A stretch of DNA of 64,000 bases from assembly GCA_039944855.1 (NCBI GenBank), contig JBDUXZ010000020.1:124001-188000 (forward strand), written 5' to 3'. Below, piece after piece: positions 6,601-53,900 of the stretch. Below the pieces are notes generated by a model. It saw only the letters and a list, made by a program, of their open reading frames with translations, searched no databases and was not told the DNA's origin. Position 1 is the stretch's first letter; each line of letters begins with the position of its first letter. The position numbers and the translations under genes were made by a program. Source of the stretch: Rhodothermales bacterium. Lineage in GTDB: Bacteria; Bacteroidota; Rhodothermia; Rhodothermales; JANQRZ01.

Positions 6601-6647
6601 TCTGCTGTCATTGCGAGAAGCCCGTAGTACTCCGACCGTTCCACTCC

Positions 6648-6790
6648 GTCATCCTGAGCGGAACGGAGTGGAGTCGAAGAACCCCAAAGGGCTCGGTGAA
6701 GCCCATCTGGTCGGGCATGGCTTCGACAGACTGCGGGGCTTCCCCGTAAAGATCCTTCGACTGCGGCCTGTGGCCTTCGCTCAGGATGAC
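6648..6790. repeat. Dispersed element with terminal inverted repeats, copy A
   Basis: A 143-bp element whose ends are a perfect 13-bp inverted repeat (GTCATCCTGAGCG / CGCTCAGGATGAC). The interior shares long blocks with a second copy at 19406-19526, including GGAACGGAGTGGAG and AAGATCCTTCG next to GGCCTGTGGCC. It has no coding capacity. It separates the DHH gene from the ligase gene and may be a MITE-like or structured intergenic repeat. Confidence 0.8.
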
Positions 6791-6816
6791 AGGGTGTGAT
6801 GGGCAGCGCATCGTCA

Positions 6817-19384: not shown

Positions 19385-19547
19385 TGTTGAGAAGCTCTCC
19401 ACTTTGTCATCCCGAGCGGAACGGAGTGGAGCCGAGGGATCTCTGCGGACACAGTTGCGACAGTCTGCCGCGGTCTCCCCCGGAAAGATCCTTCGGCTGC
19501 GGCCTGTGGCCTCCGCTCAGGATGACACCCATTCGAGCTTCTCAACA
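19385..19547. repeat. Dispersed element with nested inverted repeats, copy B
   Basis: The core (19406-19526) matches the element at 6648-6790, with ends GTCATCCCGAGCGG / CCGCTCAGGATGAC. Outside it lies a second perfect 13-bp inverted repeat, TGTTGAGAAGCTC (19385-19397) and GAGCTTCTCAACA (19535-19547). It fills most of the 304-bp gap before the GMC oxidoreductase gene and has no coding potential. Confidence 0.8.
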
Positions 19548-21744: not shown

Positions 21745-21782
21745 AGTCCCCCTCCTGGACAGGAGGGGACAGGGGTGGTCGA
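21745..21782 (+). repeat. Left inverted repeat of the DUF559 cassette
   Basis: 38 bases containing the hairpin CCCCTCCT-GGAC-AGGAGGGG. It differs from the complement of the right end at one base. Confidence 0.9.
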
Positions 21783-21802
21783 CGAAATGAGGCGACACGA
21801 GC

Positions 21803-22177
21803 ATGAATCCCGACGAGCGCCACACAAACCGTCCGGACTTGAAGCCGATACGGCGCGATCTCCGCAACAACCCGACGTCGGCCGAGCGTGCGCTGTGGCA
21901 GATGCTGAAGGGCCGACGACTCCACGACCGCAAGTTCCGGCGTCAGCACAGCGTCAGTCGATACGTGCTCGACTTCTACTGTCCCGCCGAGAAACTGGCG
22001 GTGGAACTGGATGGCGCGGTACACGACGACCCACTTCGACACGAGTACGACACGAAGAGACAGGCTGAGCTGGAAGCACTTGGCATCGCAGTGCTGCGAT
22101 TCCGAAACCGCGACGTGCTGAAAACGCCGGACACCGTGCTCGCGACTATCTCCGCTCGCTTTAGAGAAGGCAGGTAA
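21803..22177 (+). CDS. DUF559 / Vsr-like endonuclease-domain protein
   Basis: A 124-residue protein of the DUF559 family, whose fold belongs to the PD-(D/E)xK/Vsr nuclease group. It shows the family N-terminus (RRDLRNNPTSAERALWQML), RKFRRQHSVSRYVLDFYC with the acidic metal ligand, LAVELDGAVH with the second acidic residue, and the C-terminal LEALGIAVLRFRNRDVL. Substrate and role of DUF559 proteins are not established; they often occur singly. Here the gene fills an inverted-repeat-bounded cassette, suggesting that it acts on or spreads with those repeats. The ATG at 21803 gives a full-length family member. Confidence 0.9.
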   Translation: MNPDERHTNRPDLKPIRRDLRNNPTSAERALWQMLKGRRLHDRKFRRQHSVSRYVLDFYCPAEKLAVELDGAVHDDPLRHEYDTKRQAELEALGIAVLRFRNRDVLKTPDTVLATISARFREGR

Positions 22178-22183
22178 TCCTCT

Positions 22184-22221
22184 TCGACCACCCCTGGCCC
22201 CTCCTGTCCAGGAGGGGGACT
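22184..22221 (-). repeat. Right inverted repeat of the DUF559 cassette
   Basis: 38 bases, inverted copy of the left end, containing CCCCTCCT-GTCC-AGGAGGGG. It starts 6 bases after the nuclease stop and ends 35 bases before the convergent acyl-CoA dehydrogenase stop. Confidence 0.9.
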
Positions 22222-22256: not shown

Positions 22257-23921
22257 CTACACCTGTGGGCGGGAGCGCTCGATGATGGCGCGGAAGTCGG
22301 TGTCGGCGGGAAGCGTGCCGAAGGCGAGGCCGCCCCCGGCGAAGCCGTCGCCGAGCCGGGCGGCGCAGAAGGCGTCGGAGACGGCGGCGGGCGCGTGGCG
22401 GACGAGGAGCGACGCTTGGAGCGCGAGCGCGAGCCCTTCGACGAGCCGCCGGGCGCGGGCTTCGAGCGCGTGTGAATCGGCGAACGCGGCGTCGAGCCGG
22501 TCGATGTGCGCGTCGAGGGCTGGGTTGCTGCCGGAGGCGAGGCGGATCTCGGCGAGCCCCGCGGCGAGCGTTTCGGGGTCGCGCTGCACGGCGCGCAGCA
22601 CGTCGAGGCACTGCACATTGCCTGAGCCTTCCCAGATCGCGTTGACCGGCACGTCGCGGTAGAGCCTCGGCATACCCGACTCTTCGACGTAGCCATTCCC
22701 GCCGAGGCATTCCATCGCCTCGGCTACGCCCGCGACGGCCCGCTTCGTCACCCAGTACTTGCCGACGGCGGTCCCGAGGCGCGTGAACTTCGCCTGCTGC
22801 TCGTCTCCAGCCTCGTCGAAGCCGCGGGCGAGGCGGAGGGCGAGGGCCGTCGCCGCTTCGGATTCGAGGCAGAGGTCGGCGAGCACGTTCTGCATGAGCG
22901 GCTGATCGATCAGCCGCTTCCCGAAGACGTGGCGGTGCGCGCAGTGGTGCGTCGCCTCGGCAACGGCCCGGCGCAGCGTCGCAGCCGAGCCGAGCGCGCA
23001 GTCGAGCCGGGTGTGGCGGACCATCTCGATGATCGTCGCCACGCCGCGCCCCTCTTCGCCGACGAGCCGCGCCCACGCCCCGTCAAATTCGACTTCGGCC
23101 GAGGCGTTCGAACGGTTGCCGAGCTTGTCTTTGAGCCGCTGGAAATGAAGCGCATTGACTTCGCCGTCCGGCGTCCAGCGCGGGAGGAGGAAGCACGAGA
23201 GCCCGCCCTCGGCCTGCGCGAGGACGAGGAACGCATCGCTCATCGGGGCCGAGCAGAACCACTTGTGGCCGGTGATTGCATATTCCTTTCCCGGCCCGCG
23301 CGCACCGATCGGCTCGGCGGCGGTGACGTTCGCGCGGACGTCGGTGCCGCCCTGCCGCTCGGTCATCGCCATGCCGAAGGTGCAGCTGCGCTTCGCGTCC
23401 GGCGGGAGGAAGCGCGGGTCGTAGTCGGTGGCGAGCACGCGCGGCTCCCACTCGGCGGCGAGGTCGGGCTGGAGCCGGAGCGAGGGGACGACGGCACACG
23501 TCATCGTGATCGGGCAGCTCGTGCCCTCGTCCGCCTGGTGACGGATCATCATGAGCGCACCGCGCGCAACGTGCGCGCCGGCCCGCTCCTCGGTCCACGG
23601 CAGACTGTGAAGCCCGTGCTCCACCCCGAGCCGCATCAGGTCGTGGTAGGCCGGGTGATACTCGACGGTGTCGAGCCGATGCCCGTAGCGGTCGTGCGTG
23701 CGGAGGACGGGCGGGTGCTCGTTCGCGAGCCGACCCCATTCCAGCACCTCGGCCGAGCCGCAACGCACGCCGAACGCATGCGCGGTTTCGTCGATCCATT
23801 CGCCCCCCTCGCGCGTGACCGCCTCGCGGAGCGGCGTGTCGTGCGCGTAGAGGTCGTAGTCTGCGAGCGGCGGCGGCTGATTGAGGACGGCGTGCTTCGG
23901 GTCGGGCGTGACGATCTGCAT
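22257..23921 (-). CDS. aidB: AidB-like acyl-CoA dehydrogenase family protein
   Basis: A 554-residue flavoprotein, matching the roughly 540-residue AidB branch and longer than catabolic acyl-CoA dehydrogenases. Visible are the N-terminal NQPPPLADYDLYAHD, TFGMAMTERQGGTDVRANVT, ITGHKWFCSAPMSDAFLVLA, HTRLDCALGSAATLRRAVAE and ECLGGNGYVEESGMPRLYRD. AidB is an FAD protein of the adaptive response to alkylating agents that binds DNA and may protect or repair it. This copy stands alone, with no ada or alkB nearby, but in a region with several other repair genes. Confidence 0.9.
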   Translation of the reverse strand: MQIVTPDPKHAVLNQPPPLADYDLYAHDTPLREAVTREGGEWIDETAHAFGVRCGSAEVLEWGRLANEHPPVLRTHDRYGHRLDTVEYHPAYHDLMRLGVEHGLHSLPWTEERAGAHVARGALMMIRHQADEGTSCPITMTCAVVPSLRLQPDLAAEWEPRVLATDYDPRFLPPDAKRSCTFGMAMTERQGGTDVRANVTAAEPIGARGPGKEYAITGHKWFCSAPMSDAFLVLAQAEGGLSCFLLPRWTPDGEVNALHFQRLKDKLGNRSNASAEVEFDGAWARLVGEEGRGVATIIEMVRHTRLDCALGSAATLRRAVAEATHHCAHRHVFGKRLIDQPLMQNVLADLCLESEAATALALRLARGFDEAGDEQQAKFTRLGTAVGKYWVTKRAVAGVAEAMECLGGNGYVEESGMPRLYRDVPVNAIWEGSGNVQCLDVLRAVQRDPETLAAGLAEIRLASGSNPALDAHIDRLDAAFADSHALEARARRLVEGLALALQASLLVRHAPAAVSDAFCAARLGDGFAGGGLAFGTLPADTDFRAIIERSRPQV

Positions 23922-50968: not shown

Positions 50969-53900
50969 ATGACACGGATCGCCCGACACCGCTACCTGAT
51001 CGGACTGGCTGCGCTCCTTGCCGTTGCGAGCGCTCACGCCCAATCGCCACAGCCGGCGCCGCCCACGGCCGAAGCTGCGAGTGCTCCTGCCCAGCCGTTG
51101 GAAACGGGGCTACTCGGAGCGGCTGTGTCGCCCCGTTTCGAGCGGCTGACGATTGAAGACGGCCTCTCGCAAGGCCTGATCGCCGACATTTTTCAGGACC
51201 GGCGTGGATTCCTGTGGTTCGCTACCGGCGAGGGGCTCAACCGATACGACGGCCACACCGTGAAGGTGTACGAGCCCGTCCCCTTCGACACCACCTCGCT
51301 GGCCGACGGCAACCTCAGCAGCGTCCACGAGGACCGCGCCGGGGCGCTCTGGGTGGCGACGCAGTATGGCGGCCTGGCTCGCCTCGACGCGGACGAGACG
51401 TTCACGCACTTCCGCCACGACCCGGCCGACCCCCACAGCCTCAGCCACGACCACACGACGGCGGTCTTCGTAGATCGTCGCGGCATACTCTGGGTGGGGA
51501 CGGAAGCGGGGCTGAACCGGATGGAGCCCGACCGGCCGGGCCGCTTCACGCAGTTCCGCCACGACCCGACCGACCCGACGAGCCTGAGCCACGACGCCGT
51601 CCGCTCGCTCTCCGAGGACGCAACAGGCGCGCTCTGGGTGGCGACGGCCGACGGCCTGAACCGGCTCGACTCCGCCACCGATCGCTTCGCCCGCTACCTC
51701 CACGACCCCGATCGCCCCGGCGAGCCCGGCCGTGCCCTCCACCGTCAGTTCGTCGACGCCCGCGCACCGACGGTCCGCTGGATCGGCTCCGACAGCGGCC
51801 TCGTCCGCTTCGACGCCGCCGACGGGAGCGCGCGCCGCTACCTCCCGAACCCCCGTGGCGGGGCCGGTCAGAACGTCGTCGTCGATGTCAGCGCTGACCC
51901 GTGGGACCCGGGCGTACTCTGGGTACCGGTCCGCGACGTGGGCCTCGCCCGCTTCGACACGACCACGGAGACGTTCACGCTCTACCCCATCGACGCCAAC
52001 AACCCCCACGGCCTCGTCGAGCACGCCGGCTCCACGGTCTACACCGACCGCTCGGGGACCGTCTGGGTCGGCTCGTCCGGAGGCGGGCTGAACCGGTTCG
52101 ATCCGGCCGCTATCGGCGTAACTCACATCGGTGCGGCGACGGCCGAGGCGCCGGGGCTGGTAAACCCGAACGTGTGGGGGCTCGGTGTCACCCGCGACGA
52201 CACCGTCTGGGCCGGCACGAGCGGCGGCGCCCTCCACCGGTTCGACCCGGCCGCCGGGACGGTCCGCGTGTGGGCGTCAGCCAACGGGAGGCTGGACCCA
52301 GACCGCCCTTCCGACGAGGCCAACGCCTTCGCCGAAGAGCCCGACGGCACGCTGTGGATTGGGACGATCCGCGGCCTCGACCGCTACGACCCCGCCACGG
52401 GCCGGTTCGCGCGTTACCGCCACGATCCCGCCGACTCCACCAGCCTCAGCGACGACAACGTGCTGGCCCTCCACCACGACCGCGACGGCACGCTCTGGGT
52501 CGGGACGATCCGCGGCCTCAACCGGTTCGACCGCGGCACCGGCACCTTCACGCGCTACCTCCCCGACCCCGGCGACGGCACTACCCTCGGCGACGACTGG
52601 GCGGCGGCCATCTTCGAAGACCGCGCCGGCATGTTGTGGGTGGGGACGCGGAGCACGGTGAGCCGCCTCGACCGCGCCACCGGGCGGTTCACGAACTTCC
52701 GCCACGACCGCGCCGATGCCACGACGCCGACGCACGGGCCGTTCGTGTGGCTGCACGAGCGGGAACGAGAGCCGGGCGTGCTCTGGGCCGCGAGCGCCGA
52801 CGGCGGCGGCCTCGACCGGATCGACACCCGCACCGGCACCGTCGCCCACTTCACGACGACATCGAGCGAGATCCCCGACAACACCGTCTACGCCGTGCTC
52901 GAAGATGCCGAGGGACGGCTGTGGCTGAGCACGAACCGCGGCCTCGCCCGCTTCGACCCGGACGAGCCGAAGCCCGGCCACACCTTCCGCCGCTTCGGGC
53001 CCGAGAGCGGGCTACCGGGTCTGGAGTTCAACCAGCACGCCGCCGCACGCGGCCCCGACGGCCGCCTCTATTTCGGCGGCGTCGATGGCCTCGTCGCCTT
53101 CCACCCGGACGACCTCGTGGGGAATCCCATCCCGCCGCCCGTGGTCCTCACCGGTCTCCGCGTGGGGAACGAGCGCGTCCGCCCCGGCCCCGGCTCGGTT
53201 CTGTCGCGCCCTCTCTCCGAGACCCAGACCGTCACGCTCGCTCACGACCAGCGCAACGTCGCGTTCGAGTTCGCCGCGCTCCACTTCAAGGCCCCCGAGC
53301 GTAACCGTTACCGCTACCGCCTCGACGGTTTCGACAGCGGCTGGGTGGAGGCCGGGACGCGCCCTGCCGCAACGTACACGAACCTCCCGCCGGGCCGATA
53401 CACCTTCCACGTCATCGCCTCGAACAGCGACGGCGTCTGGAACGAGGAGGGGGCCGCCCTCGCCCTCACCGTCGTCCCGCCGCCGTGGCAGACGTGGTGG
53501 GCGTACCTCGGCTACGGGCTCCTCGCGGTCGGGCTGCTGACGGGGGCGTATCGCGCGCGCCGCCGCCGCCACGAGCTGCGGCACCGGCTGGAGATCGAGC
53601 AGATCGAGGCCGAACAGCTCCGCGAACTCGACCGCGCCCGCAGCCGCTTCTTCGCGAACGTCAGCCACGAGTTCAGGACGCCGCTCACGCTCACCCTCGG
53701 CCCGCTCGACGACATCAAAGCCGGGCTCTACGGCCCGCTTGACGCGCCGCTCGCCCAGCAGGTCGACCTCGCCCGCCGCAACGCGGGCCGCGTGCTCGAC
53801 CTCATCAACCAGATCCTCGACGTCGCCCGCCTCGAATCCGGTCGTACGCCGCTCCGCGCGCGTCCGCTCGACCTCGGTGCGTTCGTCGTGGCCGTTGCGC

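Follow-up and report, generated by a model that had tools for sequence, protein, structure and literature searches.

Structure of the cassette and its nuclease

The window (the whole stretch of 64,000 nucleotides of Rhodothermales DNA that was analysed) contains a cassette of 477 bp at positions 21745–22221. It consists of one DUF559 gene between two inverted arms, and the gene sits between convergent neighbours. The spacing between gene and arm is only 20 bp on the left and 6 bp on the right. The arms are identical at 37 of 38 positions, and the identity reaches out to 41 nt at 95%. The features are as follows.

21745–21782, plus strand: left end, triplex motif, 38 bp (inverted repeat; matches the right end at 37 of 38 positions)
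21749–21768, plus strand: left hairpin CCCCTCCT-GGAC-AGGAGGGG (from sequence; two places in the window; DNA fold of −8.5 kcal/mol)
21769–21771, plus strand: left linker ACA (from sequence)
21772–21779, plus strand: left third-strand tail GGGGTGGT (from sequence; mirror rule checked against 156 hairpins of DUF559 loci)
21803–22177, plus strand: DUF559 (PF04480) PD-(D/E)XK nuclease gene, 124 aa (Pfam E 7e-34; fold match to 3hrl and 3r3p)
22184–22221, minus strand: right end, triplex motif, inverted, 38 bp (inverted repeat)
22187–22194, minus strand: right third-strand tail GGGGTGGT (from sequence)
22195–22197, minus strand: right linker CCA (from sequence)
22198–22217, minus strand: right hairpin CCCCTCCT-GGAC-AGGAGGGG, minus-strand reading (from sequence; two places in the window; folded)

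In each arm, 8 bp pair perfectly to form a stem that closes a 4-nt loop. From outside to inside, the arm runs AGTC, hairpin, 3-nt linker, tail, CGA, and the single mismatch between the arms is located in the linker. The hairpin palindrome occurs at only these 2 places in the window even when up to 3 mismatches are allowed, versus 0.02 in shuffles. In both arms the tail GGGGTGGT corresponds at 8 of 8 positions to AGGAGGGG in reverse order with T in place of A. In an antiparallel purine third strand, G is placed on G-C and T on A-T. Because the tail mirrors the purine stem with A changed to T, each arm is an intrastrand-triplex motif (TM). A TM was defined as a pyrimidine arm, a purine arm and a mirror third strand, with a stem of 6–15 and loops of 1–6. 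Both arms fall within this definition (stem 8, loop 4, linker 3, tail 8/8).

The stem sequence of such ends varies by lineage (CCCCTCCT, CCCTCTCCC, CCCCTCTCC, CCCCCTAA), and the tail changes along with the stem. The linker of many ends is a hairpin in its own right. Among 30 distinct Hymenobacter ends, each of the 8 base pairs of this second hairpin shows changes on its two sides, pairing is kept in 97.9% of cells, and the covariation score is 0.857, versus 0.24 after shuffling and at most 0.14 after sliding. G-T occurs in 2 cells only, which is below the expectation for an RNA helix and may reflect selection on DNA shape or templated correction. No match to a known RNA family was found. Judged from these sequences, the end appears to be a fold rather than a fixed sequence.

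An earlier note on this DNA had described 38-bp inverted repeats around one tightly packed gene of the DUF559 family, with an 8-bp hairpin in each repeat. Alignment, gene coordinates and the Pfam match agree with this description, and the stems are present. The hairpin alone is an incomplete account of the end, since the third-strand tail belongs to it, as does, in many lineages, a second hairpin in the linker.

Two other repeats were seen in the window. Positions 6640–6791 and 19398–19527 hold two copies, about 90% identical, of another dispersed repeat (GTCATCCTGAGCGGAACGGAGTGGA ... GATCCTTCG), which looks like a further small repeat family. Positions 51401–52738, within a likely coding region, hold repeats with a period of 141–144 nt whose copies are 64–86% alike.

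The protein matches Pfam DUF559 with 116 bits (gathering cut-off 20.6). The sole other domain match is a sub-threshold one to the MTES_1575 nuclease. The AlphaFold model is confident (pLDDT 88, pTM 0.81). By sequence, the best matches among solved structures are NGO0050 (3hrl, E 2e-32) and I-Bth0305I (3r3p, E 1e-5), and the same two match best by fold (for I-Bth0305I, Foldseek E 2e-4, TM-score 0.59). The residues invariant among 35 sequences include E28, D57, E68, H74 and D83, an order which we take to be compatible with an EDxHD active site. Neither an HUH/tyrosine domain nor a transposase domain, including DDE, was found by Pfam in the one gene of the cassette, which has the PD-(D/E)XK fold.

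Triplex motifs at DUF559 loci across bacteria

When 84,980 genomes were scanned with the DUF559 profile, 80 loci were obtained from Bacteroidota, Cyanobacteria, Acidobacteria, Verrucomicrobia, Elusimicrobia, Chloroflexi, Proteobacteria and other phyla. A matched inverted pair was present in the 300-bp flanks of 38 of the 78 usable loci; of 1934 positions drawn at random from the same DNA, 0.4% had one. By a direct definition of the motif, a TM lay within 300 bp at 62/68 DUF559 loci, versus 39 of 1339 control windows (2.9%) from the same loci, and TMs lay on both sides at 42/68 loci versus 0/1339 control windows. Of the G-rich hairpins at DUF559 loci, 156 in all, 91 have the mirror tail on the inner side and 67 on the outer side (the motif turned round), whereas the same-strand control gave 11.

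Further copies were sampled in twelve genomes, each picked for one armed DUF559 locus, and matched arms were found in all except one of about 18. Of the DUF559 hits on plasmids, the three examined (two from Azospirillum and one from Synechocystis) showed no matched arms. In genomes with several cassettes, the left and right arms of the same cassette matched better than swapped arms in 26 of 28 cassettes (median match score 29 within a cassette versus 9 between cassettes). The own-arm match and the TM association together indicate that ends and gene belong together and are not a chance genome-wide repeat. The supposed bond between ends and gene is supported, and the finding named beforehand as speaking against it, relatives that carry the gene but lack the repeats, was not obtained, as 62 of the 68 loci have the motif. 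In Laspinema palackyanum, a DUF559 domain lies within a helicase gene with several tandem triplex motifs, all translated in frame. A further hairpin motif lies inside an apparent xseA gene in the right flank of another cassette locus.

TM repeats were described by Holder et al. in 2015 from over 260 genomes, with 23 copies in E. coli K-12 and 443 in M. aeruginosa (PMC4666352). The E. coli sequence formed a triplex in vitro, the repeats were tied to genome instability, and no transposase or integrase was reported near the copies (PMC4666352). The ends described here share with these TM/PIT repeats the hairpin with a mirror third strand, the dispersal and the frequent inverted pairs of A/B type. 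The difference is that no mobility gene was found near the motifs in that study, whereas here a DUF559 gene adjoins the TMs or lies between them in the majority of cases examined. Copy no. 9 of Holder et al., in E. coli, lies between fabI and ycjD (PMC4666352), and ycjD is a DUF559 gene. No literature linking DUF559 to TM repeats was found in open-access papers (preprints and most subscription papers were outside this scope).

In E. coli K-12 (1350000–1353500), ycjD has a TM on its 3′ side and a partial TM at its 3′ end. Most of the ycjD stretch is missing in about 38% of E. coli genomes, and eefRABCD has been reported at its place instead (PMC12817139). For this reason the fabI–sapF interval was rejected as a clean empty site, and alx–sstT was rejected because a deletion has removed one arm in phylogroup B2. 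At the N. gonorrhoeae DUF559 locus examined, two long direct repeats, each holding a TM, flank the gene.

Insertion, exchange and gene-less copies

The metH gene of Stagnimonas aquatica carries an in-frame cassette that separates the B12-binding domain from the activation domain. The metH-DUF559 frame is open across both arms and the nuclease (1451 aa), and the metH linker is uninterrupted in 7/7 aligned relatives. About 471 bp, a multiple of three, have been inserted; 449 bp of these span the two repeats from outer edge to outer edge, and the remaining ~22 bp beyond the repeats count against the explanation preferred below. Other in-frame cassettes were found in mazG, hsdR, an MmeI-type enzyme (methyltransferase domain) and an Eco57I-type gene, and fusions of a cassette with recQ, with purL and with a GNAT gene were also seen. 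The in-frame arms translate to linkers rich in Gly, Pro and Ser, and these enzyme copies suggest that such ends can serve as protein linkers.

Upstream of the transketolase gene of Hymenobacter, the cassette is present in 22 of 30 species and absent in 8, with two main end types. On the DUF559 protein tree the end type changes once (support 100/99). On the tree of transketolase, whose gene is about 30 bp away, the same end types require six changes, forced by well-supported branches. One change versus six indicates that ends and gene were exchanged together at this site while the neighbour stayed put. The proposal of a minimal mobile unit gains from the metH cassette, missing in seven relatives, and from the swapping of the unit in Hymenobacter. 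No consistent target-site duplication was seen in the flanks read, and no target motif was found; both results count against the explanation preferred below.

In two genomes of the same family as the Rhodothermales bacterium, the left neighbour gene is followed by other genes, and the stretch read contains neither DUF559 nor such a hairpin. The window carries a gene for an AidB-type acyl-CoA dehydrogenase (22257–23921) to the right of the cassette; the two same-family genomes have a TPR gene instead, and gene content varies between same-family genomes at the cassette position. A Prevotella locus was rejected as an empty site because its intergenic sequence is too divergent.

Eight further copies without the gene were found in the bacterium's own genome. 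Those read through are mostly two TMs facing each other, 100–150 bp in total, one TM being nearly identical to the cassette arm and the other having a longer linker. Contig C3 of this genome carries another DUF559 cassette with different arms, which match each other (score 37) and have one solo copy. In 120 Hymenobacter genomes, up to 117 motifs per genome were counted, about equally on both strands and mostly as inverted pairs, and a reversed-pattern control gave zero matches in these genomes. With kinship ignored, motif number correlated with DUF559 number (Spearman 0.37, p 3e-5), and the median was 0 motifs without DUF559 and 10 with it. Solo copies outlive the gene in some genomes (27 in one with no DUF559 detected), and 22 Hymenobacter genomes with DUF559 gave zero matches to the single motif pattern used; these two observations also speak against the preferred explanation. 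Gene-less paired ends in both settings agree with the parallel to REPtrons that had been proposed. A Hymenobacter solo element between lnt and suhB was rejected as an insertion site, because relatives hold other hairpins there and the exact ends are undefined.

Proposed mode of spread and alternative explanations

The REPtron (RAYT, REP ends and REPINs) is likewise a small gene between inverted palindromic ends with dispersed non-autonomous pairs. It differs in that RAYT is an HUH tyrosine transposase, whereas the enzyme here is a PD-(D/E)XK nuclease, and in that REPs have a GTAG tag, whereas these ends have a third-strand tail and no GTAG rule. A DDE insertion sequence or MITE is not indicated, as neither a DDE transposase in the one gene nor a consistent target-site duplication in the flanks read was found. 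The nuclease is related to known homing enzymes and shares a related catalytic domain with the EDxHD homing endonuclease I-Bth0305I (PDB 3r3p). I-Bth0305I serves a mobile intron; the cassette has structured inverted ends and gene-less derivatives, and no intron or intein. No Hint domain surrounds the nuclease, and the MetH-DUF559 fusion contains only the MetH domains, DUF559 and the overlapping MTES_1575 match. The closest solved structure is NGO0050 of N. gonorrhoeae (3hrl). The gonococcal DUF559 locus examined is also flanked by TMs on both sides, but these are direct there and inverted here. Vsr and Caulobacter VsrA share the superfamily fold, and VsrA carries DUF559, but the window gene has no linked methyltransferase.

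We conclude that the cassette is a self-mobile, REPtron-like element in which a PD-(D/E)XK nuclease, presumably cutting the ends, replaces the transposase. The data show the anatomy, the association of gene and ends in many phyla, the insertion of the unit, its exchange at one site and the solo pairs, whereas binding and cutting of the ends and copying by repair are inferred. Probably, the cassette of 477 bp is by itself a whole mobile element and belongs to a widespread family; its nuclease would act on the ends, and homing-like repair would copy the cassette. The ends are inverted TMs, in which a hairpin is followed by a linker, either 3 nt long or itself a hairpin, and by a G-rich tail that can lie on the stem as third strand. 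The sole gene would encode a nuclease fitted to these ends. The nuclease may read the fold of the end and cut either the folded end or a target carrying such an end. The break would then be repaired by copying from the donor, so that the element spreads in a homing-like manner rather than by transposase cut-and-paste. The same activity in trans could spread gene-less end pairs, as RAYT does for REPINs. The nuclease fold and the exchange at a fixed site fit homing-like copying, which does not cover entry into new sites such as metH. Of the earlier view of a REPtron-like, self-propagating element without a known transposase, the mobile unit, the gene-bound ends and the REPtron parallel, which extends to solo pairs, are supported; recognition of the ends by the nuclease is presumed, and a hairpin alone describes the end incompletely.

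The main rival is that DUF559 is cargo, that the ends are spread by replication slippage or repeat recombination of the host, and that the nuclease has an unrelated job, perhaps Vsr-like mismatch repair. Such a role has been proposed for Caulobacter VsrA, whose presence leads to an SOS response when the methyltransferase ScmA is missing (PMC12907096). Solo motifs also persist without DUF559, and in E. coli the motifs appear to be old and to evolve through deletion (PMC4666352). But a single family in 62 of 68 cases would be unexpected of cargo, as would a protein clade that tracks the end type, and we regard this explanation as unlikely. Less likely still is single-strand transposition of the RAYT/IS200 kind, in which the protein would nick folded single-stranded ends and join them during replication. 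The folded, structured ends, the REPIN-like inverted solo pairs and the strong compensatory change in the linker hairpin would suit it. Against it, DUF559 is found alone with no HUH/tyrosine domain, no target motif was found, and known PD-(D/E)XK enzymes hydrolyse DNA with no covalently held end.

The idea that the hairpins are ordinary transcription terminators flanking a small gene draws on the convergent neighbours and on one weak terminator-like match in the left arm. It is opposed by the missing T-run on most arms, by the mirror tail, which is foreign to terminator structure, and by the translation of arms within metH, mazG and hsdR. An earlier study cited by Holder et al. found no promoter or terminator activity of TMs (PMC4666352). 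The generic terminator, named beforehand as a finding that would speak against the element, was looked for and rejected on the in-frame coding copies and the single weak match; it is very improbable.

For the homing-like element, it is an evenly balanced question whether it represents a new class, with a lone PD-(D/E)XK nuclease, triplex ends recognised by shape and no transposase, that is the source of the TM repeats dispersed over hundreds of bacterial genomes, E. coli among them, where YcjD or a relative since lost would be responsible. It is called a new kind of element because it would work like a REPtron without the HUH enzyme, with a homing-type nuclease outside its usual home. TM repeats are common and linked to instability and have no known engine, and the link to DUF559 names a candidate that is directly testable, also in E. 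coli K-12. The cassette may provide the missing partner of an E. coli repeat family without known means of spreading. If true, DUF559, a very common family with no known function, would gain a role, and the cassette would exemplify an element whose DNA ends are recognised by how they fold.
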